Of a stretch of 64,000 nt of DNA, positions 15,651 through 63,108 are shown one piece after another (position 1 is the first letter of the stretch; the number at the start of each line of letters is the position of its first letter). The notes beneath the pieces are model-generated. The model worked only from the letters and a program-made list of their open reading frames with translations. It was not told where the DNA came from and did not search any database. Position numbers and translations under genes: made by a program. The stretch is from Halomarina salina (lineage in GTDB: Archaea > Halobacteriota > Halobacteria > Halobacteriales > Haloarculaceae), in NCBI RefSeq assembly GCF_023074835.1, contig NZ_JALLGW010000005.1, forward strand, positions 1 through 64,000. The letters run 5' to 3'.

Positions 15651-15655
15651 TGGTC

Positions 15656-23285: not shown

Positions 23286-24859
23286 TGGTCTGCCTCGTTT
23301 CGCTCGTCCGTCGTGTCCACTTCCGCGTCCGTGTCCGTGTCCGCGTCTGCCGCCGTGAGCGAGTCGTCAGCAACCGCGTCGCCGTTCGTTTCGTCAGTGT
23401 CTACCTCTGTACGGCCGCCGTCGGTGAGAGGGTCAACGTCCATCTCGCCGTCGACGCCACCGACAGGCACCGTGGTGAGATTCGAGAGGTCCACCTTCTG
23501 CTGGGACCGCACTGCGAGGGCGACACAGAGCAGTAACGCGGCCAGTCCAGCCGCGTACACTTCGACCGTGAGCGTCGTCACAGCCACATTCGAGTCCCAC
23601 TCATAGGGGTACGCCTCGAGGAACAGGCTGATCGCATAGCCGACCACGCCGAGGCCGACCAGCGAGAGCGCCTTCGTCTTTCGTCCCGAAGGGAAGAGAA
23701 CGACGAGGCTCAACAGGAAGGCAGGGAGGCCCACCGCGCCGGTCGCGAACGAGGCCGTTCGAGCCAGCCAGTAGATGTCCGACCCGCGTTGGGGAACTTC
23801 CATCGACCACACGAATCCCCCCAGCGTCACGGCGCCGAGGAGGAAACTCAGTAGGCCGACGCTGACCCCCGCGTAGATGGCTCGCGGGACGACCGGGCGG
23901 GGACCGTGGCCCACTGGCCCGATGTTCCGTGCGTACCATCGAAGGATACGCGAGCTCGCCACCCGTTCGACGAACTCGGGGTGGGCATAGCCACCATCAC
24001 CGACGGCCGCGAGTGGGTCGGCATCCGACTCAATCTCAATCTCGGGGTACTCCTCGGAGATACGGTCGAACTCGAAGTCGCTATCCTCGTTCGCTTCCGC
24101 CTGGGCCGCCGCCTCGACATCGTAGGCCGCGTCAGCAACATCCTGAGCGCGGTCGTCCGGGCGCGTGTAGTTGCCCTGCGTGAACGAGATCGGTGGCTTC
24201 TGCCCGTGATAGACCTCATAGAGGACTTCCAAGACAGACGCTCGCGTGTCGAGCAGTTCCGTTTTCACCTGCGTTTGCGGGAGTTTCGAGGCCACACGCT
24301 GGGCGCGGGCTTTCACTTCTTCGAGACACGCGGCTTCCGTCTCGCTGTCCGTCTCGACATCGTTCCCACCCGGCAGGAACCCACGAATTTGGGCCATGAC
24401 GCCATCGTCGGCCTCTCCATCCTTCGCGACCGAGACCGCGACGTAGAAATCGCGGTCACGAATCTCCGCGACGTCGACGACGTTCCGCAGCCACTCAGCG
24501 TGATACTGTCGCCCGTAATCCATCAACGGCGACTCGTCGAGCGCTTCCTCTTCGCCAGCCCCGTCCTCGCTCGTCCCGATGAGCGGGCGGTCGACGTTCT
24601 CGAAACGTCCCAGGTAGGGCTCAGGATCGTACGCAGTCGTCACCGAGAGGATCTGCGCCGGGAACTGTAGCCCGCGAAGGAACGTCATGAACGACAAGTA
24701 GAGGCTCTCCCGGCGTTCCTCTGAGAGGATGAGCCACTCGCGGGGCTGGACCCGCATGAGCATCGCGTACGTCGTTGGCGTTTCTACGACACCGCCGTCA
24801 CGGACATTCTTGAAGTCCATGAGGTCCAGCGTCGAACCGGCGTCTTCGTATTCAGTCAT
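23282..24859 (-). CDS. conjugation membrane protein with TraC-like N-domain
   Basis: Start chosen at MTEYEDAGSTLDLMDFKNVR (ATG at 24859); about 525 residues. The N-terminal 230 residues (TTYAMLMRVQPREWLILSEE, LSFMTFLRGLQFPAQILSV, VKARAQRVASKLPQTQVK) resemble the accessory TraC-like domain of Gram-positive and archaeal conjugation operons. Four membrane helices follow between about residues 325 and 465, and a disordered acidic tail ends the protein. Directly upstream of virB4 with a 4-base overlap, and overlapping the preceding gene by 8 bases. Confidence 0.7.
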   Translation of the reverse strand: MTEYEDAGSTLDLMDFKNVRDGGVVETPTTYAMLMRVQPREWLILSEERRESLYLSFMTFLRGLQFPAQILSVTTAYDPEPYLGRFENVDRPLIGTSEDGAGEEEALDESPLMDYGRQYHAEWLRNVVDVAEIRDRDFYVAVSVAKDGEADDGVMAQIRGFLPGGNDVETDSETEAACLEEVKARAQRVASKLPQTQVKTELLDTRASVLEVLYEVYHGQKPPISFTQGNYTRPDDRAQDVADAAYDVEAAAQAEANEDSDFEFDRISEEYPEIEIESDADPLAAVGDGGYAHPEFVERVASSRILRWYARNIGPVGHGPRPVVPRAIYAGVSVGLLSFLLGAVTLGGFVWSMEVPQRGSDIYWLARTASFATGAVGLPAFLLSLVVLFPSGRKTKALSLVGLGVVGYAISLFLEAYPYEWDSNVAVTTLTVEVYAAGLAALLLCVALAVRSQQKVDLSNLTTVPVGGVDGEMDVDPLTDGGRTEVDTDETNGDAVADDSLTAADADTDTDAEVDTTDERNEADQ

Positions 24860-25373
24860 TGTAGGTCTCTCCGAGCGTTGTCGTCGCAGCGGGCCACTCC
24901 GAAGCGGGCCCAGCATCCGCATCCGAATCCGTATTCACCGTCAATTCTCTGTCCACAGTATCCGAGCGGTAACTCTCGTTCCCGCCCTCGTTCTCACTCA
25001 CACTCTCACTCTCGCTCGCCGCCGGGTCTGGCCGCTCCGTGATCCAGCCCTCGAAGGGCTCACGCGAGGCGATATCGTGGTCACCAGCCTCGGGAGGCTT
25101 CCAGAGGTACTCCGTCCGCCCTCGGAAGTGGCGAGCCATCGCTGCTGCAAACCGAATCGGGCGTTGTCCTTCCGGCGTCCGTGTGTAGATAATGATTCCA
25201 GCGAAGCCCCCGAGAATCACGAACGGCGCCGTGACCAGGAGCGGTAATCCAATCGCATAGAGGATGATTGGGACGATGAGCGGCGGACCCAACGACTCGG
25301 CCAACTTCCGGGCCGAGACGCCGAACACTTTCGAGGAAAGCAAATGCGACGCCATCGGGACGTCCTTGCTCAT
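24852..25373 (-). CDS. PrgI/VirB3-like small membrane protein
   Basis: 173 residues. Two adjacent membrane helices (PPLIVPIILYAIGLPLLVTA, PFVILGGFAGIIIYTR) are followed by RPIRFAAAMARHFRGRTEYL and a disordered acidic tail. Two N-terminal helices, then an arginine-rich segment ending in an aromatic-W-x-P pattern, just before the TraC/VirB4 genes, is the usual place and form of PrgI/VirB3 proteins. Overlaps the next gene by 8 bases. Confidence 0.65.
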   Translation of the reverse strand: MSKDVPMASHLLSSKVFGVSARKLAESLGPPLIVPIILYAIGLPLLVTAPFVILGGFAGIIIYTRTPEGQRPIRFAAAMARHFRGRTEYLWKPPEAGDHDIASREPFEGWITERPDPAASESESVSENEGGNESYRSDTVDRELTVNTDSDADAGPASEWPAATTTLGETYND

Positions 25374-41259: not shown

Positions 41260-41452
41260 CGAGCAATTTGGTGTCCCCATTCGGAACCTTCGATGCTATA
41301 TACCATAGTATTGGATTAGAGGGGGTCTCCAGTTCTGCGCGAATCGCGCGCAGGGTGTCGATTTTCCCTCAAATCGGGTCGAGATCGACAATCCGGGTTT
41401 GTTTCGCCCGCCGCCGAGTGGCGACGACCCTTCCAAACATCACGATGAATCT

Positions 41453-43660
41453 ATGACGAATATAGACGTAACAAACGACGCAATCCCGGCCAATATCCGC
41501 TCTATCGAGAACTGGATTCTCTGGCGTGAGGGAGAGCGCAACGGGAAAGCTACCAAAATCCCGACTAAACCGTATCGCACCAGCGGTGATATCAACTGCG
41601 ACGTCACCAACCCCAAACAGCGCCGCGACTTCGACACTGCGTGGGAGGCACTCAACGACTCCCGCGTGCCCGGCGATGGCCTTGGCTTCGTCTTCACCGA
41701 CAACGTCTCCATCACCGGCGTCGACCTCGATAAGTGTCGTGACCCTGATACAGGCGAGCTCGAAGACTGGGCCGAAGATATCATCGACCGACTCGACTCA
41801 TACACCGAAGTGTCTCCCTCCGGCACGGGTGTGCATATCCTCGTCGGGGGCGAACTGACCGCCACCGGGAATCGCCGGGGTCGCGTCGAGATGTACGACT
41901 CCGATCGCTACTTCACCGTGACCGGGGCGCACCTCGAGGACACGCCCACGGAGATTCGGAAATGTCAGGACGAGTTAGACGCCGTTCACGGTGAGTACAT
42001 TCGTGGTGAGTCCAGCTCGGATAGGCAGTTGAGTCTCGCCGATACCGCCGTGAGCGATACCTCAGAAAGTGGAGGTAATCGTGGCGGTCGGCGTTCCACC
42101 GAAGTCCCTGGTCGGCAGAGTGAAAGCGCCCTCGTCGAGCGCTACGGTGACACCTTCAGAAACATCCGTGACCCGGCCATCCGAGAAGCCCTCGAGCGGG
42201 TCCAGACGAAGTACCTTCCCCCGGTGTGCCCCAGTACGTTTGCCGACCTCGCAGGGCCCGGTATCGAGCTATCAGATAGCGAGATTCTGAAGCGGATGTA
42301 CGACTCGCAAGGTGGCGACCGGAAACGCCGCCTCTACGAAGGCGACTCTTCGATGTGGGGGTCTCACGATGCCGATTATCCGAGTCAGTCTGAAGCGGAT
42401 ATGGCGTTCGCTCATACGCTTGCGTTCTGGACGGGGAAAGACCCCGATCGGATGGACGCGCTCTTTCGTACCTCCGGGTTGATGCGACCCAAGTGGGACG
42501 GCCAACACTACTCGAGCGGTGCGACCTATGGCGCCGTCACTCTCGCCCGCGCGCTCCTCCGAGTGGATGACCACTACGAACTCCCGAGTGACGATGGGGT
42601 GAAGTTCTCGAAGGCCGACGGGCCAACGGCATCGTCCTCTCCCTCGACCTCGGCCTCGGATATCCCCGCGAATGACGTGGCATCATCAGCATCCGCTCAG
42701 AAGCCACAGGACTCCGCTGGTGCGGCCGGGGGTTCTTTCGTGAGTGATGGCACGTCTGCATCGGCCGAGGCCGCTCCGAGCGCCCCAGGTCCGCTGCACA
42801 CGGATGACGCCGTGACTGCCGCCGAGAGTTCCCCCGACGTACTCCTCGACCTCGACGGCGACAACGACAGCGACAGTGGGGCCGACGACGGAGATGTGGG
42901 TGTGGATATGGGTGTGGACCCGGCCGCTGCTGCGGACGCGGCTGCGAACGCCCCCACTGGACAGTCAGCGTCGACGGCCATGCGCGACGCTTCCCCCGCC
43001 TCGAACGACCGGGGCGAGTCGACCCCTGGTGGGAGCGTCACTCCCCAGGGCGTCTCGCCCGCTGCTCCCGACGGGACGGACATCGACTCCGACCTCGATG
43101 AGAGTACGCAACGGATGATGACCGAGTCCGTCATGAGAGCCGGTGGTAAATGGTCGCGGACGAATCCGCATCTCGACGATTCCGAGAAGCATCCTACGGA
43201 TTGGACCGTTGGTCCTATCGAGGGTCGGACGCCGACGGCGCAGGCGATGAAGGTCGCTCGCGAGGACAACCGCGTGCTTGCGAGGTATCAGACCCGCCTC
43301 GAAGAGCGGCTCCGCGATCTCGCGGATGTTGAGGAGGAACGCGACCGCTACAAGTTCACCGCCGAGACCTACCTGAAGGCGATGGACGAGCTGATGGGTG
43401 AACGCGAACGCTACCGCAGCCAGCTCACGCGGGCCGGCTTGTTGTCGCCGGCCGACGCCGACCTTCCGGATGACTCCGTCAAGCGGCTCAAGCAGATTCT
43501 CCGCCCGATGGTTCGTAGCGAAGACGTTGCGACGGCCAAGGAGACGCTCTCAGGCCTCGATGCCGTCCTTCGCGAGTACGAGGAGGCCAACGAGCGGATC
43601 CAGGCCGACGAACGCGAACGCCGGAAACAGCGGGGAATGTTCTCCCGCTTCTTCGGCTAA
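41453..43660 (+). CDS. primase-polymerase-like replication protein
   Basis: 735 residues from MTNIDVTNDAIPANI. The N-terminal 180 residues fit the archaeo-eukaryotic primase fold of NrS-1/phage PrimPol proteins: motif I ITGVDLDKC (Asp91, Asp93), motif II SPSGTGVHI (His128), motif III DRYFTVTG (residues 151-158). A helical domain follows (MAFAHTLAFWTGKDPDRMDA, typical of plasmid primase proteins), then a 190-residue disordered acidic stretch, then a coiled coil (RLRDLADVEEERDRYKF). No helicase domain. Probably makes primers or starts replication at the repeats upstream. Confidence 0.75.
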   Translation: MTNIDVTNDAIPANIRSIENWILWREGERNGKATKIPTKPYRTSGDINCDVTNPKQRRDFDTAWEALNDSRVPGDGLGFVFTDNVSITGVDLDKCRDPDTGELEDWAEDIIDRLDSYTEVSPSGTGVHILVGGELTATGNRRGRVEMYDSDRYFTVTGAHLEDTPTEIRKCQDELDAVHGEYIRGESSSDRQLSLADTAVSDTSESGGNRGGRRSTEVPGRQSESALVERYGDTFRNIRDPAIREALERVQTKYLPPVCPSTFADLAGPGIELSDSEILKRMYDSQGGDRKRRLYEGDSSMWGSHDADYPSQSEADMAFAHTLAFWTGKDPDRMDALFRTSGLMRPKWDGQHYSSGATYGAVTLARALLRVDDHYELPSDDGVKFSKADGPTASSSPSTSASDIPANDVASSASAQKPQDSAGAAGGSFVSDGTSASAEAAPSAPGPLHTDDAVTAAESSPDVLLDLDGDNDSDSGADDGDVGVDMGVDPAAAADAAANAPTGQSASTAMRDASPASNDRGESTPGGSVTPQGVSPAAPDGTDIDSDLDESTQRMMTESVMRAGGKWSRTNPHLDDSEKHPTDWTVGPIEGRTPTAQAMKVAREDNRVLARYQTRLEERLRDLADVEEERDRYKFTAETYLKAMDELMGERERYRSQLTRAGLLSPADADLPDDSVKRLKQILRPMVRSEDVATAKETLSGLDAVLREYEEANERIQADERERRKQRGMFSRFFG

Positions 43661-43792
43661 TCCAGCCGCCTCGCACTCCTCCGTCCTCCTCTGTCCTCTT
43701 CCGCCTCCGCTCTGCTGGTGGGGTGGTCGCCGCGCGTCTCGGCAGTGTCTCTCCTACCCGCCAGCGGTGTGCCCCTCCTCGTCGCTTGGCGA

Positions 43793-43820
43793 GTATTGGC
43801 CCCCAAATGGGGGTGAGGGA
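43793..43820 (+). promoter_or_regulatory. GTATTGG hairpin element 1
   Basis: GTATTGGCCCCCAAATGG... with a C5/G5 stem and trailing TGAGGGA. Ends 6 bases before the ATG at 43827. The G-run plus TGAGG resembles a ribosome site held in the stem. Confidence 0.7.
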
Positions 43821-44132: not shown

Positions 44133-44222
44133 CGGTCGACCCGAGAACGAGCACCACCGAACCGACACGACAGAACAGACCCGTTCGATGTTCGCGGTCC
44201 CTCTTTCTTCCTTCCACCGTGG

Positions 44223-44250
44223 GTATTGGCCCCCGAAGGGGGGTGAGGGA
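44223..44250 (+). promoter_or_regulatory. GTATTGG hairpin element 2
   Basis: GTATTGGCCCCCGAAGGG... followed by TGAGGGA. C5/G5 stem with a GAA loop. Confidence 0.7.
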
Positions 44251-44464
44251 CGTGTGAGAGGGCGATGAAGACATCAGTCTTGTTCGTCGTCTCGACATCG
44301 AACTCACGAGCGACAGGGACGATCCCCGTCGGTCGGCACGAGCGTGCGAGCTGTCCCGATTCACGGACACAGACGGAGACTCCCCTCGGGGATTTCCCGA
44401 CACTCGGGGCGGTGCGATCGTTACGCGCTGCCGCCGGCGGTTGTCCTGCCTGCGACTCCCGAAA

Positions 44465-44492
44465 GTATTGGCCCCCAAAGGGGGGTGAGGGA
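44465..44492 (+). promoter_or_regulatory. GTATTGG hairpin element 3
   Basis: GTATTGGCCCCCAAAGGG... followed by TGAGGGA. Ends 68 bases before the RPA-Rpap fusion gene. Confidence 0.7.
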
Positions 44493-44560: not shown

Positions 44561-46156
44561 ATGAGTGCAAACTCCAACCTCAGCGTGGAGCAGCGTGCGG
44601 CAGACATCAGCGGCAAGTTCGACGAAGTGGGCGTAGACGTGCCCGCCTCGACCGTCCAGGAGCGAATCGCGGCGATGCAGGAGTTCAGCGTCCCGCTCGA
44701 GGAGGCGACCACGACGACTGTTCGCAACCTCGCAGCGGAGTACGACCTCGATGACGGCGACCTGTCCGAGGACATCTCGGCGCTGGCGGGCTTCGGTGGC
44801 GACGCGAGCGGCTCGCACGCCTTCGAGCGCGTCATGCTCGGCGACATCGCAGACGTCGGCCCGGAGGAATGGGTGGACGTCCGAGCGCAGGTCGTCAACC
44901 TCTGGGAGCCCAAGCACGACTCCATGCGGCAGGTCGGCCTCATCGGTGATGAGAGCGCCCAGATGAAGTTCGTCGTCTGGCAGAAGAACACCGAGAGCCT
45001 GCCTGCCCTCGAGGAGGGCGTCACCTACGACATCGCCTCGGCCATCACCAACGAGTACGAAGGCAAGTACTCCATCTCGCTTAACAAGGCCAGCGAGGTC
45101 ACCGAGGCCGCCGCCGAGGACGCCGTCGAACCCACCGATGGCAAAGTGCGCGCAACGGGCACGCTCGTCGCCCTCGAAGACGGGAGTGGCCTCATCAAGC
45201 GCTGTCCCCACGAGGACTGCACCCGCGTCGTCCAGAACGGCCGCTGCTCCGAGCATGGCGAAGTTGATGGTGTGTTCGACCTTCGGCTGAAAGCCATCCT
45301 CGACGACGGTGAGCGCGCTGTCCGAGCGCTGTTCAACGCCGAGATGACCACCGCTGTCAGTGGCATCACGCTTGAGCGAGCGAAGGAAATGGCCGCTGAT
45401 GCCCTCGACGCCAGCGTCGTCGGCGCAGAACTCCGCGCCTCGCTCATCGGGAAGACCTTCGACGTGCGTGGCCCGGTCGTCGGCGAGTACTTCCTCGTGG
45501 ACGAAGCGGTCGAGACGGGCTACTCCGCTGACAACCCCGGCCTCAACGACGCGAGCATCGCCCCGGCCGTCACTCAGCGCCAGCCGGCCAAGCGCCTGTT
45601 TGCCGAAGAACTCAACCAGGCGACCCACTCGTTCACCCGCCCCGAAGACGAGGGCGATGACCGAGCGCCGAAGTTCACGCTCCTGCCGAGTGGCGAGGCG
45701 GCCAACCGCGTGTTCGTCGTCGGGACGCTCATCGAGACGGCTGATGTCGGCAGTGACTCCGAGTTCTGGAAGGGGCGCGTGATGGCCGCTCGTGAGGCCG
45801 CCAACCTCTACGCCGGGCAGTACCAGGCAGAGGCAATGGACGTGCTCCGGTCGGCCGAGACGCCCTCGTACGTGGCCGTGGTCGGCAAACTCCACCACTA
45901 CGAGACGGACTACGGCGTGAAGGTGTCCATCCAACCTGAGTCCATCACGGTCGTCGACCGCGAGGCCCGTGACTCGTGGGTGGCCGAGACCATCGACGCG
46001 ACCCAGCAGCGCCTCGGCGCGCTCGCCAGTCGCGACTCCGACGCCACCGACGCCGTCCAGTCGGTGTACCAGTCGGATGTCTCCGACATCGAAGCGGCAG
46101 TCGAGGCGGCCATCAAGGACATCGCGCCGGAAGCGAGTCTCGCTCAAGCCCAGTAA
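44561..46156 (+). CDS. RPA-Rpap natural fusion protein
   Basis: 531 residues. Residues 1-315 are an RPA: helical N-domain, OB fold (EWVDVRAQVVNLWEPKHDSM, QMKFVVWQKN), zinc motif Cys215-x4-Cys220-x8-Cys229-x2-His232 (CPHEDCTRVVQNGRCSEHG) and second OB (FDLRLKAILDDGERA, FDVRGPVVGEYFLVDEA). After a 20-residue linker, residues 340-531 are Rpap (AKRLFAEELNQATHSF, ERAPKFTLLPSGE-like segment, ANLYAGQYQAEAM, YVAVVGKLHHYETD). In the other two loci of this window the same proteins are separate, adjacent genes. Hairpin element 3 lies upstream. Confidence 0.88.
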   Translation: MSANSNLSVEQRAADISGKFDEVGVDVPASTVQERIAAMQEFSVPLEEATTTTVRNLAAEYDLDDGDLSEDISALAGFGGDASGSHAFERVMLGDIADVGPEEWVDVRAQVVNLWEPKHDSMRQVGLIGDESAQMKFVVWQKNTESLPALEEGVTYDIASAITNEYEGKYSISLNKASEVTEAAAEDAVEPTDGKVRATGTLVALEDGSGLIKRCPHEDCTRVVQNGRCSEHGEVDGVFDLRLKAILDDGERAVRALFNAEMTTAVSGITLERAKEMAADALDASVVGAELRASLIGKTFDVRGPVVGEYFLVDEAVETGYSADNPGLNDASIAPAVTQRQPAKRLFAEELNQATHSFTRPEDEGDDRAPKFTLLPSGEAANRVFVVGTLIETADVGSDSEFWKGRVMAAREAANLYAGQYQAEAMDVLRSAETPSYVAVVGKLHHYETDYGVKVSIQPESITVVDREARDSWVAETIDATQQRLGALASRDSDATDAVQSVYQSDVSDIEAAVEAAIKDIAPEASLAQAQ

Positions 46157-54059: not shown

Positions 54060-54581
54060 CTACTTCGTCTCGCCGCCTCGCGCGCTCCTCGCTCGCTCGC
54101 CCGCCGCCGCTTCCTCCAGCCTCAAGACGTCAATCTCCGACCCGTCCCCAGAGGACGCGTCTGTCACCGCGTCCGGCTCCGCCGCCGTTTCCACCGCTGG
54201 CTCCTCTACTCCTGACGACGCCCGCCGAACCCCCAAGACAGTCAACGGAATATCCTTCATTCGCACACCCAACTCCCGCTTCGCGATGCGCGAACTCTCC
54301 TCCGCTGAGAACGCCTCGAACTGCGCCAACACCGTCAAGACCACCAACGCGAAATCCGTCGTCGAAAGCGCCGCCTCATACTCATACCCGCAGGACGGAC
54401 ACGCAACGTCCTGAACGACGATCTCCGAGTACCGCGCCGACGTCTGATTCACCCTCTTGCCCACCTCCGACACCGCGATGTTGATCACGTCCTGGACGCC
54501 CGTCGTTCCCGCCACCACCCATGGAACCGACAGCTGTACCTCAAACCATGTCTCCTCCTCACCGTGCCGAGACGTCGTCAT
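54060..54581 (-). CDS. UPF0212 (DUF555)-family protein
   Basis: 173 residues from MTTSRHGEEETWFEVQLSV. Matches the archaeal UPF0212 family: VPWVVAGTTGVQDVINIAVS, EVGKRVN, VACPSCGYEYEAALS (zinc C-x2-C), ALVVLTVLAQFEAFSAEES and ELGVRMKDIPLTVL. The usual second cysteine pair is not obvious, and an extra 60-residue acidic tail follows. Function of the family is unknown. Operator site 3 lies 44 bases upstream of the ATG. Confidence 0.75.
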   Translation of the reverse strand: MTTSRHGEEETWFEVQLSVPWVVAGTTGVQDVINIAVSEVGKRVNQTSARYSEIVVQDVACPSCGYEYEAALSTTDFALVVLTVLAQFEAFSAEESSRIAKRELGVRMKDIPLTVLGVRRASSGVEEPAVETAAEPDAVTDASSGDGSEIDVLRLEEAAAGERARSARGGETK

Positions 54582-54933
54582 ACTGTTGTTCCATATGCGT
54601 CTCACCCGTATGAGGACTCGTTGACTACATTGAATGTGGAACTACATCCACCACATTCTGGTCCGCACGATATCGACCGGAGCACAGGCTGCTTCTGGGG
54701 GGTCGTGGTCGACGGTTCGGGAGGCTGAGGCGCTGCTCGGCGGCTTCATGTCCAGTTTTCGAAAGAGAGTTTAGTTGGAATTCTGAGTTCGATCGGTAGG
54801 GAACTCGGGGGTGCTAGGGTTCGTTACAGTTCAGGACACAACCGGGTAACGGGGAGTACCGTTATCGAGGTCTGTCGAATCTGAGCCTGAATCCGAACCT
54901 GAGTGCGGGTATCAGCTGTGCTCATACACATAC
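54582..54933. other. gap with operator site 3
   Basis: Besides the operator (54625-54661), nothing is recognised. The genes on either side are both leftward. Confidence 0.5.
54625..54661 (-). promoter_or_regulatory. palindromic operator, site 3
   Basis: CTACATTGAATGTGG followed by ACTACATCCACCACATTC. The first part is the inverse of TACATTCAATGTGG-type sequence at site 1; ACTACATCC is shared with site 2. Upstream of the UPF0212-family gene. Confidence 0.55.
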
Positions 54934-57165
54934 TCAGGCAGCTCCTCCGTCGAGTGACTCGGTGTACTCGGTGAGACGCTGTTCGGTGTATTCCTTACAA
55001 CTCTCAACACCAGCGCGTGCCAGGCAGAGTGGGTGGAATCGAGACGCTACGACCGGATCGTAGTTCATGTCTTCATTCCGGACACCACAAACCCAACACG
55101 ACGAGGGGTCACGAGACGAGTCGCCGTTCACGAATCTCATCAACGCGTTTGCCTTGAAGAGACCGAGTGCCTCAGGGTGGTCCTTGAGGAATCGGCGATT
55201 TCGCTTCATCTGACGCTCTTGATGTGCGAGCTGTTTGCGTTCAGTAATTGCTTGAACACGGTCGGAGACACGAGCGAGTTCGTCTTCGATGAGCGTCTCG
55301 ACCAGCACTGGCGAAGGCCAGGTTGTCGAAACGTCACCAGAGAACTTCGCAGCGGAACTCCGGGGAACAGCCTCACCAGCATCAGACGATTGCGACGACT
55401 GACTAACACGCTGAGGTGTCGCAGGCGTCGAGCGAGTCGATGGGGTGACCGGTGCACGCTCGAGAATCTGAATCTCGGATTCCCAACGCGAGTCGAGCTT
55501 CGGTTGACCTTGATACGTCTGGTTGGACTTCTTGTACGGTAACTTGAAGTCAACCAGGCGGACCACGTCACCTTCGTTCGGCTCGGTGAGAATCTTCTTC
55601 GAGATGATTACTTCTCCATCGGCGTCATCCGGGTCGGCCGTTGATGCAGTAATCTCCTCTTCGCTTGACTCCCAGACAGAGACACGAACTTCATCCTCGC
55701 GGCGATCTCCATCCTTGACGATCATCCCGAATTTCAATCCAGGGACGTCAGCATGGTAGACCTTCTTCACGACGCCTTGCGTGGTGAGATAGCCTTTTGA
55801 GGACCAGAGGTTCGCCTGTAGAATCGCGTTGATTCGCAGGACATTCCTCGGGTTCGTTGCTTCGTCTTCGAGGAGTCTGAGGAAGGCCGACGTCACATCT
55901 TGTCCATCCAACACACCCTGTGCAAGATTAGACGCGATTTCGACGGGTCGGCGACGAATCTCGTGGACGGTCTCAGCCTGTAGCAATCTGCGTGCTTCGG
56001 CCAAGACCTCCTCACGAAGTTCGGAATCCTCGGCGGCGAGCTCCCGAAGGGGCTCGGCGAGGTCGTAGAGCTGCTGGGCGACGGTCTGTTCACGACGCTC
56101 AGGAGCAACACCAGCACACGCGCTACGATAGCAAGCGAGCAATTCGGTGTGTGCATCCAACGTCGCAGCCAGGCCAGTCAGGTGTCCAGCAGCGTCAATT
56201 CCCGCAGAGACTCTCTTCAGCTCTGCATCCAACGCCAGTCGGCGCTCGATACCAGGAATCGACGACCGAGAGTACTCCGCTGGATTCGCAACGAGAGTCC
56301 GGAGTGCGACTAACTCCCCAGAGGGAAGCGTCACTTCCAGGTCGTCCGTTCCGACACCCTCTGCCTCGCGTGGCGTCTGCTCATCCTCGGGGATGATCTT
56401 CAGCGCACGCAGTCGGCGAGTGTGTGCATCCAGCTGGTCTTCAGGGACGAGTGTTCGTCCAAGGCGCACCGGAACATCCGTCGAACTGATGGGGTCGTAC
56501 TCATCGAAGCCAGACGCCGTGCCCGTCAACTGATCGCCAGTCGGGTCGGTCAGGCGGTCGTGGCCCATGTAGATGTACTGCCCACGTGCGATGACATCAG
56601 ATTCAGAGAGCGCATCAGCGGGTCGTCCGCAAGCGTTCATCTCAGTCCTCCGCTCATCACTCCGAGACGCGACCATCGGTTGGTCATCGTACCAGCCGTA
56701 GACGCCCTCGGATTCACGTTCGAGTTCGAGTTCAGAACCGGACTCGTGCGCACCAGTACGCTCGGACTCACGCTCGAAGTCGACACCGGCATCGACATCG
56801 ACGAGGACGTCGACATCGGTGTCGAATTCGGAGTCAGATTCGGTGGTCGAGTGTTGTCCATCCACAGTGCCACGGAACTCACGCTCTGTCGAGAGTGCGG
56901 ACGGCGAGTGGGAACTCGCGTCTGCGTTCGTGTCTGCATCGAGGTTGAGCCACCGACGAATCGTCGGGGATTCCACTCCGTCGTCGAGACGGCGGATCTC
57001 CTCGGTGGAGAGGCGAACCGTCGCCGGGAATCCGTGGTCTGCCGCCTTTGAGACCAGGCGAACAGTGTGGGTGGGGTGCTCATTTTCGGTGTTGTGTTCG
57101 ATTTCGGTACTGCCGCTCTGCTGTCCGTCCTCGGTGAGGTCGGACCTGTCGGTGTATCCACTCAT
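54934..57165 (-). CDS. OB-fold protein with C-terminal zinc motif
   Basis: 743 residues from MSGYTDRSDLTEDGQQSGST. The N-terminal 250 residues are disordered and acidic. Residues about 250-480 are helical (LRALKIIPEDEQTPRE, YDLAEPLRELAAEDSELREE). An OB-fold-like segment follows at about 500-620 (LTTQGVVKKVYHADVPGLKF, EVRVSVWESSEEE, GDVVRLVDFKLPYKKSNQTY). Near the end CWVCGVRNEDMNYD then FHPLCLARAG is a likely zinc-binding C-x2-C / H-x3-C site. OB fold plus zinc site suggests a ssDNA- or RNA-binding protein, in keeping with the RPA genes nearby. Family not recognised. Confidence 0.65.
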   Translation of the reverse strand: MSGYTDRSDLTEDGQQSGSTEIEHNTENEHPTHTVRLVSKAADHGFPATVRLSTEEIRRLDDGVESPTIRRWLNLDADTNADASSHSPSALSTEREFRGTVDGQHSTTESDSEFDTDVDVLVDVDAGVDFERESERTGAHESGSELELERESEGVYGWYDDQPMVASRSDERRTEMNACGRPADALSESDVIARGQYIYMGHDRLTDPTGDQLTGTASGFDEYDPISSTDVPVRLGRTLVPEDQLDAHTRRLRALKIIPEDEQTPREAEGVGTDDLEVTLPSGELVALRTLVANPAEYSRSSIPGIERRLALDAELKRVSAGIDAAGHLTGLAATLDAHTELLACYRSACAGVAPERREQTVAQQLYDLAEPLRELAAEDSELREEVLAEARRLLQAETVHEIRRRPVEIASNLAQGVLDGQDVTSAFLRLLEDEATNPRNVLRINAILQANLWSSKGYLTTQGVVKKVYHADVPGLKFGMIVKDGDRREDEVRVSVWESSEEEITASTADPDDADGEVIISKKILTEPNEGDVVRLVDFKLPYKKSNQTYQGQPKLDSRWESEIQILERAPVTPSTRSTPATPQRVSQSSQSSDAGEAVPRSSAAKFSGDVSTTWPSPVLVETLIEDELARVSDRVQAITERKQLAHQERQMKRNRRFLKDHPEALGLFKANALMRFVNGDSSRDPSSCWVCGVRNEDMNYDPVVASRFHPLCLARAGVESCKEYTEQRLTEYTESLDGGAA

Positions 57166-57438
57166 AACAAGCTCGAAAAGCGCCGTGCTTTCCACTCTCA
57201 GAGACGCGAACAGCGATGATAACTGTATCGTGGTATCCCTGCGCTGTCTGTCGGTTTTCTGTTGAAGACCCCCGCAATTCCGCGTACATTCAACGGGCCT
57301 CCGGTGCGCGAAGGACGACCGCCCGCGAACGCCCACGTCGAACAGAAGCGATCAGGACGGATACTCGCTCATAGAACGGCGCTCCCGCTCGCCGAAAGTA
57401 GAGTGGAAAGGCGAGTTTGCCTTTCCGAGCTTGTTATG
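57163..57438. repeat. inverted duplication of a 5' leader
   Basis: CATAACAAGCTCG at 57163-57175 (start codon and leader of the leftward gene) has a perfect inverse, CGAGCTTGTTATG, at 57426-57438, leading into a rightward ATG. Both leaders also carry a small stem next to it: GGAAAGGC/GCCTTTCC at 57405-57426, and AAAGC/GCTTT at 57177-57191. Confidence 0.6.
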
Positions 57439-57547: not shown

Positions 57548-58030
57548 TCAAGGAGGATTGCTTCCAGCGTTCAGCGGGTCATATGACTGGTTGTGGTAGG
57601 CGACGCGCCAGAGTTTGAGCACAGCACGAGTAACCAGTGCCTCCGGTGACTGCTTGATGCAGGACTCCTCAACCTCGTTCGGGTCTGAACTCGCATTAGG
57701 TGGTGGGTGATAATGCTCGAGACCAGGCACGTGGATATAGTCTCCATCGTGTGGATGCTTTCCCCACCGGAAGTTCACGCCCTTGGAGTCGGTATAGTGA
57801 AACTTGTAGTCTCCACGGATTGTCCACTGAACGTCAATTCGACCACTCTCGGCCTCACAAAGGCCATCCTCGAGGCTGATCTCAAGTACAGATGGGTTGA
57901 GATAGTCGTCGAGCGAAGGTTTCGCGAGTGGCTCTGTCTCGTCGATAATATCGCGGATTGTGATCAGGGCCGATCGGTCAATCGGCCCACGGAGCGAGTG
58001 GCTCTCCTCCGTTCCAGCTGGCTTCGACAT
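57548..58030 (-). CDS. TumE-like (DUF6516) toxin candidate
   Basis: 160 residues. Core features: VLEISLEDGLCEAESGRIDV, YKFHYTDSKGVNFRWGKHPH and HVPGLEHYHPPPNASSDPNE, matching TumE/DUF6516 proteins (the Y-x-H-Y...R-W...PH...HHP pattern). Ends PLNAGSNPP. Paired 3 bases after the HTH gene, in the order regulator then toxin. TumE proteins act as toxins in TA pairs; here that is inferred. Confidence 0.65.
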   Translation of the reverse strand: MSKPAGTEESHSLRGPIDRSALITIRDIIDETEPLAKPSLDDYLNPSVLEISLEDGLCEAESGRIDVQWTIRGDYKFHYTDSKGVNFRWGKHPHDGDYIHVPGLEHYHPPPNASSDPNEVEESCIKQSPEALVTRAVLKLWRVAYHNQSYDPLNAGSNPP

Positions 58031-58033
58031 CGA

Positions 58034-58621
58034 CTAGGCCGAAATGCTGCGGTCGGTCGAGCGACGATCGCCATCGACGAATCGTTCAGCATTCGCGATC
58101 GAGAGGGCTGCGTTTGCGAACGCGAGGTTGCGCCGGAGCGTCTGCCACTCTTGAATCGTCTCCGAATCGATAGCCTGCTGATCCGAGGCTATGTCTCCGA
58201 GTGTCTGGTTCGTCTGCTCGACGGCTAGCTCTTCGGGCGAATCAACGCCGTATTCAGAGCGATACTCGTTGAGCTGATCGCGCATCTCGCCGATACGCGT
58301 GACGAGTTCATCCGTCGAGACGTGCTCGAGGATATCTGCCGCCTGCTCAACGACGAGCGATTCAGGGGACCGGCGGTAAGTTGTGCCACCGTGTTCGCCG
58401 GTAGCCGTTACGACGAATCCCTCGTCGGCGAGTGCATTGAGGTGCTTTCGAGCCGTCTTCGGCGAGGTGAGAGCGTCCTCGGCGACGGTGTCTGCCGACA
58501 CGGGTGAATACGTGTGGGCGATAACGTGGCGGACACGCTCGTAAGGTGTCGTCTCCTCCTTCCAATCCTCTCGGACCTCCTCGTTGATATCCGCGAACTC
58601 GGCCGGCGCTCGATCACTCAT
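58034..58621 (-). CDS. winged-HTH protein, TumE partner
   Basis: 195 residues from MSDRAPAEFADINEEVREDW. Winged helix at about 25-95: TTPYERVRHVIAHTYSPVSA, LTSPKTARKHLNALADEGFV, TYRRSPESLVVE. Then a long helical part (TDELVTRIGEMRDQLNEYRS). Acidic N-terminus. Likely antitoxin and autorepressor of the pair with the TumE-like gene. Confidence 0.75.
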   Translation of the reverse strand: MSDRAPAEFADINEEVREDWKEETTPYERVRHVIAHTYSPVSADTVAEDALTSPKTARKHLNALADEGFVVTATGEHGGTTYRRSPESLVVEQAADILEHVSTDELVTRIGEMRDQLNEYRSEYGVDSPEELAVEQTNQTLGDIASDQQAIDSETIQEWQTLRRNLAFANAALSIANAERFVDGDRRSTDRSISA

Positions 58622-58823
58622 ACTGGTTCCTTTGTGGTGCGGGAATATAGTATTTTGCCACGGGACTATGTTACCCAACCTCCGCATCCTGTCGTCCACT
58701 CTCGGTCGTTCCGGGCTCCACGTCACATACGCTGTTCGAGAAGCCCTGTGAGGACTGTACCAAGTTGTGTCGCTGGTAATCGAACTCCGCCTCCACAGAC
58801 CGGGCTCGGCTAGCTCTCGCTCA

Positions 58824-58851
58824 GTATTGGCCCCCCAAGGGGGCCGAGGGG
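58824..58851 (+). promoter_or_regulatory. GTATTGG hairpin element 6
   Basis: GTATTGGCCCCCCAAGGG... followed by CCGAGGGG. Ends 66 bases before the OB/TFIIS-ribbon gene. The adjoining gene on the left is divergent, so this copy cannot be a 3' terminator. Confidence 0.65.
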
Positions 58852-58917: not shown

Positions 58918-60648
58918 ATGACATACTACCACGACGGACAGCAACGCCTCTCGAACAGCGACGTCGAACAAGACGACCGCTTCGACGAACTCCGGCTACG
59001 CGGGCTCTACGAAAGCCCCCATCTCGAAAGCGACTGCCTCGGCGTCCGACTCGAGAACGCAGGTGAGCTCATGATGGCCGCCCGGACCCAGCCCGAATAC
59101 GACGAGTTCGGCCTTGAAATCGAAGGTACCGGAGAACAGGCACTCGACGCCTACTGGGTCGGCGCAAGCCTCCGCACCACCCAAGCCCGCGACATCGATC
59201 CGATGGACCTCACCGACGAGGACCTCACCGGACTCCCACTCGAAGCCCAAGAACGCCTCCATGGACTTCGTGAAGAGCGGAAACGCCAGCGAGCGAAAGC
59301 CCTCGCCGCCCACGTCGCGGGCATCGACCGCGAGACACGGCGCCGGGAGGAACTCCTCAGTGAGTGCCGCGAGCGCCGTGCCGACTACAACGACCGCGTC
59401 ATCGGCGACAACATCCACTCCTACGACCCCTTCGAGCATCTCGACGAGGAAACCACACAGCGCGTTCACGACGCTGCTGACCGAATCACCGACCGGCTCG
59501 TCACGCCCCCGAACAAGACCATCATCGAACACCGCCTCGGCAGCAAGGTCGCCCGGGGGCAGGACCTCTTCACCGCCCAATCGAACGTCCTCGACGAACT
59601 CTACCAGGAAGCGGGCGTCATCCAGCCCATCTCCTCAGTGCCGATCATCCCCTCGAAGTACAACCTCGAAGCCGACATCCAGGGGACCGTCACGCGACTC
59701 TGGCAACCCAAGTCCCGCACCCAACAGCAGGTCGGCCTCATCGAAGACGACACCGGGACCATCAAATTCACCGTCTGGACGAAATCCAGTCAGGGAACCA
59801 TCCTCCACGAAGGCGACCTCGTGCGCGTTGTCGCCGGGAAAGTCGGGAAATACCAGGGACAGGCGACGCTCGCCGCCGACTCCGAGACTCGCATCACGGT
59901 CATCGAGGCCGGCGACGGGCCAGCGCCACGCGGCGACATCCCCAACGTCGACTGGGCGAAATACGCCAAACGAAATCGCGAACGCGGCATCGAACAACCG
60001 TTCCAGCGACACGGCGGCTGCTCGATCCCCGCCCTTGGGACACCCGGTGTGCAGGAAGTCTCTCGTCCCGTCCACACGCCGGTCGACCGTCTCGACGCCG
60101 AACAGAGCGGGCAGATGGACGCCCACGAATGGCTCAAAGCCACCGAGATATTCGACGAAGACGGCGACGTCCCACTCCCGACCTGGTGGCGCGAACAAGC
60201 CACCGTCGTCTCCGTCCTCGTCGACGCCGACCGTGACGCGATTCACGCCGCCGTCCACGACGTCATCGCCACCTCGCAGCCCGACTCGACGTCCGTCCCA
60301 GACCATCCCGTCCCACAGGGCAAGCGCCGCCTCTGGGCGCTCGTGCGAAACCTCGACCACTTCGGAACCGCACTCGAGGACGAGGACTCGGACGCTACCG
60401 ACCAGTCCATAGAAGCCACCGAGGACGCCAGCACGAACGCGCTTACCGGCGTCACGACTCCCGACACCCCCGAGACAACGGCGACGACAGAGCCGAGCCT
60501 CGGCCTGCCCACGACCACCTGCCGGTGTCCCGAGTGCTCCCACGACCGGGCGCACTACCGGCTCGTCCAACTCCGCTCTATCGACGAGCCACCGACCAGA
60601 CTCCTCTCGTGTGCCAGTTGCGGCCAGCGCTGGCGCGATGACAGCTAA
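58918..60648 (+). CDS. OB-fold (RPA-like) protein with TFIIS-type zinc ribbon
   Basis: 576 residues. N-terminal charged helical region (about 105-160 coiled coil: EERKRQRAKALAAHVAGIDR). OB fold at about 247-330: YNLEADIQGTVTRLWQPKSR, QVGLIEDDTGTIKFTVWTKS, VRVVAGKVGKYQGQATLAAD, close to haloarchaeal RPA. The C-terminus (535-576) is a TFIIS/RpoM-type ribbon: Cys537-x2-Cys540 (CPEC), LVQLRSIDEPPTR with the acidic pair Asp556-Glu557, and Cys565-x2-Cys568 (CASCGQRWRDD). In TFS/TFIIS the D-E pair enters RNA polymerase and triggers RNA cleavage. Fusion of this ribbon to an RPA-type OB fold is unusual; it could link transcription and ssDNA. Element 6 lies upstream. Confidence 0.8.
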   Translation: MTYYHDGQQRLSNSDVEQDDRFDELRLRGLYESPHLESDCLGVRLENAGELMMAARTQPEYDEFGLEIEGTGEQALDAYWVGASLRTTQARDIDPMDLTDEDLTGLPLEAQERLHGLREERKRQRAKALAAHVAGIDRETRRREELLSECRERRADYNDRVIGDNIHSYDPFEHLDEETTQRVHDAADRITDRLVTPPNKTIIEHRLGSKVARGQDLFTAQSNVLDELYQEAGVIQPISSVPIIPSKYNLEADIQGTVTRLWQPKSRTQQQVGLIEDDTGTIKFTVWTKSSQGTILHEGDLVRVVAGKVGKYQGQATLAADSETRITVIEAGDGPAPRGDIPNVDWAKYAKRNRERGIEQPFQRHGGCSIPALGTPGVQEVSRPVHTPVDRLDAEQSGQMDAHEWLKATEIFDEDGDVPLPTWWREQATVVSVLVDADRDAIHAAVHDVIATSQPDSTSVPDHPVPQGKRRLWALVRNLDHFGTALEDEDSDATDQSIEATEDASTNALTGVTTPDTPETTATTEPSLGLPTTTCRCPECSHDRAHYRLVQLRSIDEPPTRLLSCASCGQRWRDDS

Positions 60649-60753: not shown

Positions 60754-61035
60754 ATGTGCTCCAACACCAACTCCGACAGCGATAGCAACGACATCGAACC
60801 TGAATCCCTTCCCACCAACGAGGAGCTGTTCGACCTCTATATCGTCGACGGCGAAGACCCCTCGCGAGCGGTCAATCCCGACGACCGATACCGGCCTGAC
60901 TCGCCGGGGCCAGGCCCGACCGTCGGGACGCGCTTCGCCACGCTCCAAGACGGGTCGTTCGCCATTATCGAGCGTGCCGCCCTCGGCGGATGGATCAGCG
61001 CCGACGAAACCATAAGCCTCGAAGACGCTCGCTGA
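60754..61035 (+). CDS. 93-residue acidic hypothetical protein
   Basis: MCSNTNSDSDSNDIEPESLP, NEELFDLYIVDGEDPSRAVN, then FATLQDGSFAIIERAALGGW. Acidic, soluble. The FATLQDGSFAI segment occurs in small haloarchaeal proteins of unknown function, as far as I can judge. Between two ssDNA-binding genes. Confidence 0.6.
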   Translation: MCSNTNSDSDSNDIEPESLPTNEELFDLYIVDGEDPSRAVNPDDRYRPDSPGPGPTVGTRFATLQDGSFAIIERAALGGWISADETISLEDAR

Positions 61036-61084
61036 CCGAGCAGGACAGGACTCGCAGGCCGTCGCGACCAGCAACCCTCCCAGA

Positions 61085-61112
61085 GTTTTTGCTCCCCACG
61101 GGGGATGAGGGG
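61085..61112 (+). promoter_or_regulatory. hairpin element 7 (variant)
   Basis: GTTTTTGCTCCCCACGGGG... followed by ATGAGGGG. Same layout as the others. Ends 138 bases before the RPA gene. Confidence 0.6.
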
Positions 61113-61250: not shown

Positions 61251-62204
61251 ATGTCCACCAACGCAACACCCGCAGATTCGGCGGTCAACGCCTCCAGCGA
61301 CGACCTCGCGACGGCCGCGACCACCCTCATCGAACAGTTCCCCGACGATGCCGGCGATGAAGTCCTTCCGAGTGTCGACGATATCGTCACCCGGCTCGAC
61401 CAGATGGTCAACGGCTACAACGTGCCGCTCGAGGAGGCTACTCGCGCCACGCGCAACCACTACCTCGACGTGCTAGGCATCGAATACGACGACCTCGCAC
61501 TCCCCTCGCAGAGTGCCGGCGACACGACGCTCGACGAAATCAACACAGACGGCCAGTGGGTCAGCGTCACCGTCAAAGTCGTCGACCTATGGGAGCCGAC
61601 TAGCGACAGCATCGCCCAGGTCGGACTCATCGGCGACGAGAGCGGCCGACTCAAGTTCACCAAGTGGGCGAAAGCCGACCTTCCCGAACTCAAGGAGGAC
61701 GGCGTGTACCGTCTCTACAACGTCGTCACCAGCGAGTACGAAGGCCGCTACTCCATCAACCTCAACTCCCGATCGGTCATCGAACCCGTGGATGACGATA
61801 TCGAAGTCGGCAACAACGCCGAGGAGTTGACCATCGAGGCCCCGATGGTCGCGATCCAGTCCGGAAGCGGGCTCATCAAGCGCTGTCTCCACGACGGCTG
61901 TACGCGCGTCCTCCAGAACGGCCGGTGTGCCGAACACGGAACGGTCGAAGGCGAGTTCGACCTCCGAATCAAGGCCGTCTTCGACGACGGCGTGCGCGTC
62001 CAGCACGCCATCTTCGACAAGGAGGCGACCGAAGCCCTAGCCGACATCACCATCGAGGAGGCCAAACAGCAAGCGATGGACGCTCTCGATACGAGCGTCG
62101 TCGCGAACGACCTCACCGACGCCCTCGTCGGTCGCTACTACCGAGTCAGCGGCCGCGTCATCGGGAAATACCTGCTCGTCGATGAGGCCGACCCACTCCC
62201 GTAG
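61251..62204 (+). CDS. replication protein A (RPA), third locus
   Basis: 317 residues from MSTNATPADSAVNASSDDLA. Same plan as the other two RPAs: helical N-domain (VDDIVTRLDQMVNGYNVPLE), OB fold (QWVSVTVKVVDLWEPTSDSI, GRLKFTKWAKA), zinc motif CLHDGCTRVLQNGRCAEHG, second OB (FDLRIKAVFDDGVRVQHAIF, RYYRVSGRVIGKYLLVDEAD). Followed 37 bases later by Rpap. Hairpin element 7 upstream. Confidence 0.9.
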   Translation: MSTNATPADSAVNASSDDLATAATTLIEQFPDDAGDEVLPSVDDIVTRLDQMVNGYNVPLEEATRATRNHYLDVLGIEYDDLALPSQSAGDTTLDEINTDGQWVSVTVKVVDLWEPTSDSIAQVGLIGDESGRLKFTKWAKADLPELKEDGVYRLYNVVTSEYEGRYSINLNSRSVIEPVDDDIEVGNNAEELTIEAPMVAIQSGSGLIKRCLHDGCTRVLQNGRCAEHGTVEGEFDLRIKAVFDDGVRVQHAIFDKEATEALADITIEEAKQQAMDALDTSVVANDLTDALVGRYYRVSGRVIGKYLLVDEADPLP

Positions 62205-62241: not shown

Positions 62242-63108
62242 ATGAGTAACTCAGCATCCACAGCCGACAGCAGTACCGACAGCAACAGCACCCAGCGACA
62301 GGGCCGACAGGTCGCAAAGCGCGCCTTCGCCGTCGAACTCAACGACGCAACCCACGTCTTCAAAGAGAGCGACGAGGAGCGGGCCCCGAACTTCGCGCTG
62401 CTCCCAAGCGGCGAGACCGCGAACCGCTACTTCCTCGTCGGGACCGTCACCGAAGTCAACGACGTTGGCAAGGACAGCGAATATTGGCAGGCCCGAATCG
62501 TCGATCCCACGGGCACGGTGTTCGTCTACGCTGGTCAGTACCAGCCCGACGTCACCGCGTTTCTCTCCGGCCTCGAACCCCCCGCGTACGTCGCCATCAC
62601 TGCCAAGCCCAGCACGTACGAAACCGACGACGGCAACGTGAACGTCTCACTCCGCCCCGAGACCATCACCCGCGTCGATGAAGCCACCCGCAACCAGTGG
62701 GTGCGCGAAACCATCGACCGGACGGCTGCCCGCCTCGACGCCTACGAGGACGACGACGGCAACGGCACGCCCCCGTACATCGCGATGAGCCGCGAACAGT
62801 ACGGGGACAACCTCTCACTCGAGGTCTACCGCAATGCCCTCAACGACGCTCGCGAAGACGTTGGGATGGACGCTGTCCCCTACGACGACGACACCGAGGG
62901 AGAGGTTGAGGTCGAGGCCGACACCAAGGGCGGCTCCACCCGCGTTTACGACGCCGACGACGCCGACCAGAGCGATGACGGCGACCACGACACTGACAGC
63001 AATATCGACAGCAACGGCGAGTCCGACCCCGAGGAGCTGACGGAAGAGGGGGCCATCGACGAAGCGGCCCTCGCCTCGGCCGTCGCCAACGCCGGCCTGG
63101 AGGAGTGA
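62242..63108 (+). CDS. RPA-associated protein (Rpap), third locus
   Basis: 288 residues from MSNSASTADSSTDSNSTQRQ. Core: QVAKRAFAVELNDATHVFKE, RAPNFALLPSGETANRYFLV, ARIVDPTGTVFVYAGQYQPD, AYVAITAKPSTYETDDGNVN, then helical ATRNQWVRETIDRTAARLDA. The last 80 residues are disordered and acidic, ending in a short helix (ALASAVANAGLEE). Works with the RPA encoded just upstream. Confidence 0.88.
   Translation: MSNSASTADSSTDSNSTQRQGRQVAKRAFAVELNDATHVFKESDEERAPNFALLPSGETANRYFLVGTVTEVNDVGKDSEYWQARIVDPTGTVFVYAGQYQPDVTAFLSGLEPPAYVAITAKPSTYETDDGNVNVSLRPETITRVDEATRNQWVRETIDRTAARLDAYEDDDGNGTPPYIAMSREQYGDNLSLEVYRNALNDAREDVGMDAVPYDDDTEGEVEVEADTKGGSTRVYDADDADQSDDGDHDTDSNIDSNGESDPEELTEEGAIDEAALASAVANAGLEE

Follow-up and report, generated by a model that had tools for sequence, protein, structure and literature searches.

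An RPA-type OB fold and a TFIIS-type zinc ribbon joined in a single haloarchaeal plasmid protein

Introduction

Rescue of backtracked RNA polymerase has been described for TFIIS and archaeal TFS, both of which push a D-E pair through the polymerase funnel so that the backtracked RNA is cleaved (PMC5715097, PMC8448823). Archaeal TFS (TIGR01384 / PF01096) is a protein of about 105 aa with an N-terminal ribbon (N-ZR) and a C-terminal Cys4 ribbon (C-ZR) bearing the catalytic D-E tip, and eukaryotic TFIIS (S-II) consists of domain II and the ribbon. A cleavage ribbon with a D-E tip is also found in A12.2 of Pol I and C11 of Pol III, which are polymerase subunits with an N-terminal ribbon. Sulfolobus TFS4 has put a TFS-derived ribbon to another use in a virus and mobile-element context, and it inhibits the polymerase by virtue of a hairpin that is shortened, has lost the D-E pair and carries tip lysines (PMC5715097). 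Loss of TFIIS activity has wider consequences, as TFIIS prevents backtracking-linked R-loops and genome instability and expression of a mutant TFIIS raises both (PMC6863433).

Single-stranded DNA-binding proteins have been linked to transcription from another direction. Pyrococcus RPA41 binds the RNA polymerase subunits A1 and A2, RPA stimulates transcription in vitro and the Sulfolobus SSB binds RNA polymerase (PMC3820547). A zinc-binding module is present in DBD-C of RPA1, where the zinc finger lies inside the OB fold and is followed by 100-120 aa (PMC8329085). The Halobacterium minichromosomes encode the single-OB proteins Rfa5 and Rfa6, whose deletion mutants are reported to be sensitive to mitomycin C (PMC5924565). 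In bacterial leading regions ssDNA promoters of the Frpo type, which are foldable elements, precede SSB-type genes (PMC11541004).

Here a haloarchaeal plasmid gene is described in which an OB-fold protein of 530 aa carries a TFIIS-type ribbon at its C-terminus. The protein is by its sequence neither TFS nor TFIIS, as it has no N-terminal ribbon and no domain II; it scores 31.3 bits against TIGR01384 (cut-off 64.75) and matches TIGR01385 in the ribbon alone (24.6 vs 237.1 bits). It further differs from TFS in having I555 in place of Ala and LL, ML or FL instead of FF as the hydrophobic core pair after TR. A12.2 and C11 are the best structural matches among those listed (4c2m, TMq 0.79, rmsd 1.4), but they are built into the polymerase, whereas the carrier here is a protein of the ssDNA-binding type. 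The tip QLRSIDEPPTR is kept without gaps and without Lys, and by these features the fusion is not a TFS4-type inhibitor. Compared with the Rfa5/Rfa6 type, in which proteins of about 290-330 aa stop behind the OB fold, it has an additional 95 N-terminal and about 235 C-terminal residues, and unlike the zinc finger of RPA1 DBD-C its ribbon is terminal and follows a linker. The element upstream of the gene is conserved and has an inverted repeat in most but not all sites, and it may or may not be of the Frpo type. The ribbon domain and the single-OB plasmid family are already known, but no description of the OB-TFIIS ribbon architecture was found in the open-access literature searched.

Gene and domain organisation

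The fusion gene lies in a window of 64,000 nucleotides, the whole stretch of DNA analysed here, which sits on a 135,404-base contig (C5) of a haloarchaeal-type genome of 4.46 Mb in ten contigs. Its open reading frame has an ATG start and no internal stops, and its features are collected with those of the surrounding DNA in Table 1. A first-pass annotation, made from the letters and their open reading frames, had read the gene as an OB fold and a TFIIS-type ribbon in one frame, and this was borne out by the profile matches and the full-length relatives. Its statement that the rest of the protein is RPA-like held for residues about 96-340 but not for residues 1-95 and 341-490, for which the plasmid collection gave no relatives outside the fusion family. 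Residues 1-95 are 73% identical between clades and have a pLDDT below 50 in the AlphaFold model. The whole-protein model, built with 21 aligned sequences, is confident for the helical region and the OB barrel (about 171-330) and of low confidence elsewhere, and therefore no function is drawn from residues 1-95 or 341-530.

Table 1. Positions of the fusion gene, its domains, neighbouring genes and copies of the upstream motif. Positions are those of the window, except where C5 marks a position on the contig outside it.
Feature	Position	Strand	Basis
Cdc6 gene, own contig	11085-12515		
Further motif copy	43792-43819	+	motif scans
Further motif copy	44222-44249	+	motif scans
Perfect motif copy before another RPA gene (44561-46156)	44464..44491	+	motif scans
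DUF555 gene, beyond the long hypothetical gene on all plasmids viewed	54060-54605		annotation
Gene of a long hypothetical protein, divergent from the fusion and conserved beside it	54934..57336	-	annotation of plasmids viewed
Motif AGTATTGGnCCCCnAAGGGGnnTGAGGG upstream of the fusion, 67 bases from its ATG	58823..58850	+	motif scans
CDS, OB-fold / TFIIS-ribbon fusion, 576 aa	58918..60648	+	profile and structure-sequence matches, full-length relatives
Residues 1-95, conserved N-terminal region, fusion family only	58918..59202	+	11 plasmid records
Residues 96-240, helical region common to the ribbon-less single-OB plasmid family	59203..59637	+	homology, model
Residues 251-330, RPA/SSB-type OB fold, five-stranded barrel	59668..59907	+	profiles, AlphaFold, Foldseek
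Residues 341-490, middle region, fusion family only	59938..60387	+	plasmid search; model mostly low confidence
Residues 487-530, fast-evolving linker, probably flexible	60376..60507	+	37% identity between clades, pLDDT below 50
Residues 531-576, TFIIS-type C4 zinc ribbon, tip QLRSIDEPPTR	60508..60645	+	profile, alignment, model
Codons of the acidic pair D556-E557, catalytic for RNA cleavage in TFIIS/TFS	60583..60588	+	alignment
93-aa ORF directly 3' of the fusion	60754..61035	+	ORF list
Motif copy before the RPA gene	61084..61111	+	motif scans
RPA gene (replication factor A by PRK07217), with its start set at the ATG of MSTNATPAD	61251..62204	+	profile; "replication factor A" annotation in homologous plasmids
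Second, RPA-associated DNA-binding protein gene	62242..63108	+	"DNA-binding protein" annotation at the same place in homologous plasmids
TFB gene, own contig	C5:65973-66428		
Motif copy on the same contig outside the window	C5:67119-67146	+	motif scans
PCNA gene, own contig	C5:67299-68303		

Zinc ribbon

The ribbon belongs to the TFIIS ribbon domain, Pfam Zn_ribbon_TFIIS (PF01096) matching residues 536-573 with an E-value of 3.2e-13 and 49.7 bits against a cut-off of 21. Its cysteines are C537, C540, C565 and C568, and the pattern CxxC-x24-CxxC is present in all members of the family except a frameshifted Haloglomus copy. Alignment with 22 haloarchaeal TFS ribbons, taken from both paralogues, was free of gaps at 39-54% identity, and the four cysteines together with Q551, D556, E557, T560, R561, W572 and R573 were common to the fusion and TFS ribbons. 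The D556-E557 pair is invariant in every fusion copy that covers the tip and in the 22 aligned TFS ribbons.

A sequence search of solved structures matched this stretch to the ribbons of TFIIS, A12.2, C11 and Thermococcus RPB9. The isolated ribbon, modelled with the 22 TFS ribbons aligned, reached a mean pLDDT of 85, and when the model was compared with the PDB by Foldseek all 50 matches listed were chains from an RNA polymerase or a complex of one (A12.2, C11, RPB9, TFIIS), the first among them being Pol I A12.2, Thermococcus RPB9 and Pol III C11. The model and these listed matches point to a three-stranded ribbon fold like that of TFIIS, A12.2 and C11. The first-pass annotation had proposed an intact TFIIS-type ribbon with its D-E pair, a claim that stands on the Pfam match over the cut-off, the strict conservation and the ribbon model, and its numbering of D556 and E557 was correct. 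A rubredoxin-like or otherwise unrelated type of ribbon, which it had named as the finding that would speak against the proposal, was checked by modelling and is ruled out by the ribbon model and the Foldseek comparison.

OB fold and ribbon-less relatives

The NCBIfam model PRK07217 (replication factor A, E 1.8e-12) and SSB models match residues about 252-330, and the Pfam OB-fold model matches residues 254-322 at 2.8e-05, slightly under its cut-off. Solved archaeal OB domains were found for the same stretch in the sequence search of solved structures, and Foldseek groups the modelled OB with archaeal RPA/SSB domains. From the fold alone the domain is predicted to bind ssDNA.

Residues about 96-345 fall within a wide haloarchaeal plasmid family of proteins of about 290-340 aa that are without any ribbon, the helical region and single OB fold being homologous over about 240 aa at 30-40% identity. 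Haloferax members of this family are HVO_A0019, A0374 and A0409, and the relatives on Halobacterium pNRC100 and pNRC200 are 299 aa long. The latter are probably Rfa5 and Rfa6, judging by size, location and single-OB content rather than by an accession match. On the basis of these alignments, the fusion belongs in enlarged form to the haloarchaeal single-OB plasmid SSB family.

Distribution and conservation

A database search for the domain pair, which the first-pass annotation had called for, recovered full-length relatives both on plasmids and in genomes. A tblastn search of 72,556 PLSDB plasmids found them on 11 plasmids, all haloarchaeal and from nine genera, at 60-94% identity, and a query with the ribbon only returned the same 11 plasmids and five others with other TFS-type genes. 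The full-length protein is present in eight of 392 genomes of the order, the genome studied here included, and further copies were found in GTDB contigs of Halonotius, Halorubrum, Haloglomus irregulare, Halosimplex and Halomicroarcula; a copy in a Haloquadratum MAG was left out because assembly gaps interrupt the gene. Since intact relatives occur on many plasmids, and in several genomes as well, a chance or assembly fusion is ruled out. The fusion is intact on all but one of the 11 PLSDB plasmids, the exception being that of Haloglomus. In the copy of Haloglomus halophilum a small deletion just past DEPPT shifts the frame of the second half of the ribbon, which is otherwise intact, and takes away the second Cys pair; this is either a recent loss or a sequencing error.

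In all intact copies the four cysteines and the tip are invariant across four clades. Between clades the ribbon is 81% identical with a pN/pS of 0.20, compared to 37% and 0.58 for the adjoining linker, and therefore the ribbon is under purifying selection as a unit. Fusion proteins that are 99% identical occur in Haloplanus, Halobellus and Halorientalis, which indicates that the element moves between hosts.

An association with phages, which had also been raised from the sequence, is not supported: no relative of the fusion was found among 50,697 phage records or in two scans of IMG/VR viral contigs, nor was there a PHROG match, and on these searches a phage or virus gene is rejected. The host carries two ordinary TFS elsewhere in its genome. 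A census of TFIIS ribbons in 59 genomes of the order gave one or two matches in nearly all of them, fitting chromosomal TFS, with extra matches only in the genome studied here (the fusion) and one weak hit, and thus no independent OB-ribbon fusion; as some long open frames lay outside the inspection, rare other fusions are possible in these genomes.

Gene neighbourhood

The fusion gene sits within a plasmid replication block that contains RPA, RPA-associated, TFB and PCNA genes. On ten homologous plasmids viewed by their annotation the RPA and RPA-associated genes are usually downstream of the fusion, nine carry an annotated small ORF of 91-100 aa immediately 3' of it, and TFB, PCNA and orc1/cdc6 are found nearby on many. 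The first-pass annotation had suggested a role where transcription meets exposed ssDNA, at R-loops, in plasmid transfer or in phage transcription. The plasmid side of this has support as context, the gene being plasmid-encoded, beside replication genes and on the same contig as a VirB4-like ATPase. This ATPase (20964-23285) matches conju_CD1110 with an E-value of 1.2e-51, under the cut-off of the model, and with a DUF7139 gene it forms candidate transfer machinery at 20964-24922 on the reverse strand. Fusion-bearing plasmids are typed as non-mobilizable in PLSDB, that is, no relaxase is recognised.

The contig has three RPA loci besides the fusion. One of them (44561-46156) encodes a protein of 531 aa in which an RPA part matching PRK07217 runs into a domain resembling the RPA-associated protein of Table 1 (QPAKRLFAEELNQATHSF...), an apparent natural fusion of RPA with its partner. 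At 14853-16744 on the reverse strand an RPA gene (15656-16744) lies beside an OB-fold gene (14853-15650). An NrS-1 polymerase HBD domain was detected at 41399-43660 (E 1.9e-26), which may be part of a plasmid primase-polymerase or a helicase-binding piece. A DUF7342 winged-helix gene and a gene weakly resembling the TumE toxin (57548-58624, reverse strand) may constitute a toxin-antitoxin pair; a winged-helix gene paired with a small ORF also adjoins the single-OB gene of pNRC200 and, on some plasmids, the fusion.

Upstream motif

Nearly all of the relatives checked have a motif of the form AGTATTGG-nCCCC-nAA-GGGG-nnTGAGGG some 60-80 bases ahead of the fusion ATG. A scan of the 4.46 Mb genome allowing ≤3 mismatches found six copies, all on this contig and strand, compared to none for the reversed control. 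They precede the fusion, the RPA gene, PCNA, another RPA gene and two small ORFs, and on the homologous plasmids the motif stands before the same genes. With ≤2 mismatches allowed it was found in only three of 293 genomes, the one studied here and two others that both carry the fusion. All 59 scanned sites are in gene orientation, and most have a C4-5/G4-5 inverted repeat, which is imperfect in part of them. A scan for sigma-70 promoters and terminators gave nothing useful, as expected in an archaeon. We take the motif to be the putative control element of a regulon for plasmid replication to which the fusion gene belongs, and it may be a promoter, an operator or a hairpin.

Possible functions

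Our preferred reading, put forward tentatively and with a little less than even confidence, is that the protein is a plasmid-borne transcript-cleavage factor tethered to ssDNA, which rescues or clears stalled polymerase at replication forks or R-loops. A TFS-like cleavage ribbon would be joined by a flexible linker to an ssDNA-binding protein of the plasmid single-OB type, made together with the plasmid RPA and PCNA through the common upstream element. The OB domain would hold the protein on exposed ssDNA, be it the non-template strand of a stalled bubble, an R-loop or a plasmid replication fork, while the ribbon on its tether would enter RNA polymerase by the NTP-entry funnel and place D556-E557 at the active site. 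Backtracked RNA would then be cleaved and the stalled polymerase would resume, or clear before it blocked plasmid replication. In favour of this stand the two domains, the strictly conserved catalytic tip, the ribbon fold, the selection on the ribbon, the ribbon-less parent family, the replication genes nearby and the common motif, with precedents in the RPA and SSB that bind RNA polymerase (PMC3820547) and in the part that TFIIS plays against R-loops (PMC6863433). Binding to ssDNA and to the polymerase, the cleavage itself, action at conflicts or R-loops and the co-expression of the fusion with RPA and PCNA are steps that we infer. Several observations count against this reading. TFS docks on the polymerase jaw/lobe through an N-terminal ribbon that the fusion lacks, and the protein has no identified domain that would dock in its place. 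I555 stands next to the D-E pair where all 22 aligned TFS have Ala, V550 occupies a position where they have Lys or Gln, and the two ordinary TFS of the host leave the need for a third unexplained. In addition, the frameshift in Haloglomus may mean that the ribbon is dispensable there, if it is not a sequencing error, and most of the full-length model is of low confidence.

RPB9, a mainly structural relative, is without the D-E pair. Were the fusion ribbon likewise mainly a docking device, as in RPB9/A12-like subunits, the protein would join an ssDNA-binding protein to the host RNA polymerase at plasmid promoters and act together with the plasmid-encoded TFB, with cleavage secondary; the TFB gene in the same block and the element-specific motif common to the block genes fit such recruitment, but the strict conservation of D556-E557 and the surrounding catalytic tip argues for cleavage, and we consider recruitment unlikely. 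A precedent is the Sulfolobus SSB, which is described as recruiting RNA polymerase and able to support transcription without TBP in vitro (PMC3820547). Conservation of the tip also bears on the proposal that the ribbon has nothing to do with polymerase and serves an RPA simply as a zinc module, structural or for binding nucleic acids, in the way of RPA1 DBD-C. Zinc fingers are frequent in RPA proteins (PMC8329085) and the isolated TFIIS ribbon is described as nucleic-acid binding in the title of PDB 1tfi, but nucleic-acid binding does not require the tip that is kept here, the ribbon forms the last 46 residues after a flexible linker and its structural matches are to polymerase-associated ribbons, which leaves this proposal quite unlikely. 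The first-pass annotation had also suggested inhibition of a phage or host polymerase. A protein that plugs the funnel of a host or competing polymerase and lowers host transcription would suit a plasmid-borne gene, and an archaeal TFS paralogue turned inhibitor is known (PMC5715097, PMC8448823). However, because TFS4 lost the D-E pair and has tip lysines, the opposite of the fusion, in which D-E is invariant, the hairpin full-length and Lys absent, inhibition is disfavoured (PMC5715097) and we regard it as very unlikely.

It is also conceivable, though improbable, that the fusion coats single-stranded plasmid DNA during early replication or cell entry and helps RNA polymerase to start and keep moving on it, a suggestion modelled on the SSB genes and ssDNA promoters of bacterial leading regions. 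Consistent with this are the three RPA loci that accompany the fusion on a single plasmid, the VirB4-like ATPase (under its model cut-off), the spread of nearly identical fusions between genera, and the motif, with its inverted repeat, oriented like the fusion gene at every scanned site, for which the Frpo elements beside SSB genes provide a precedent (PMC11541004). On the other hand, the non-mobilizable typing and the absence of any known oriT or transfer polarity count against transfer, part of the sites have an imperfect inverted repeat, the uniform orientation of the motif is simply that of the genes, and entry of archaeal plasmids as ssDNA is an assumption. By analogy, the fusion and the plasmid TFB, RPA, PCNA and motif might together be a system that either keeps host polymerase at work on the plasmid DNA while this is single-stranded or clears it away. 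Such a system would be the archaeal equivalent of the leading-region/Frpo strategy known from bacterial conjugative plasmids, and we give it little probability.

Significance

Archaeal and yeast RPA associate with RNA polymerase for a molecular reason that is not known (PMC3820547). If our preferred reading of a tethered cleavage factor is true, a natural single chain that joins both activities would offer a direct, mutable test (D556A/E557A) of cleavage delivered to ssDNA at replication-transcription conflicts. If the analogy with Frpo were true, a transcript-cleavage factor would be physically built into an ssDNA-binding protein. The common upstream motif marks out a candidate regulon in plasmids of a family that has been little described, and the fusion, if it acts as proposed, would show how a mobile element manages the polymerase of its host.
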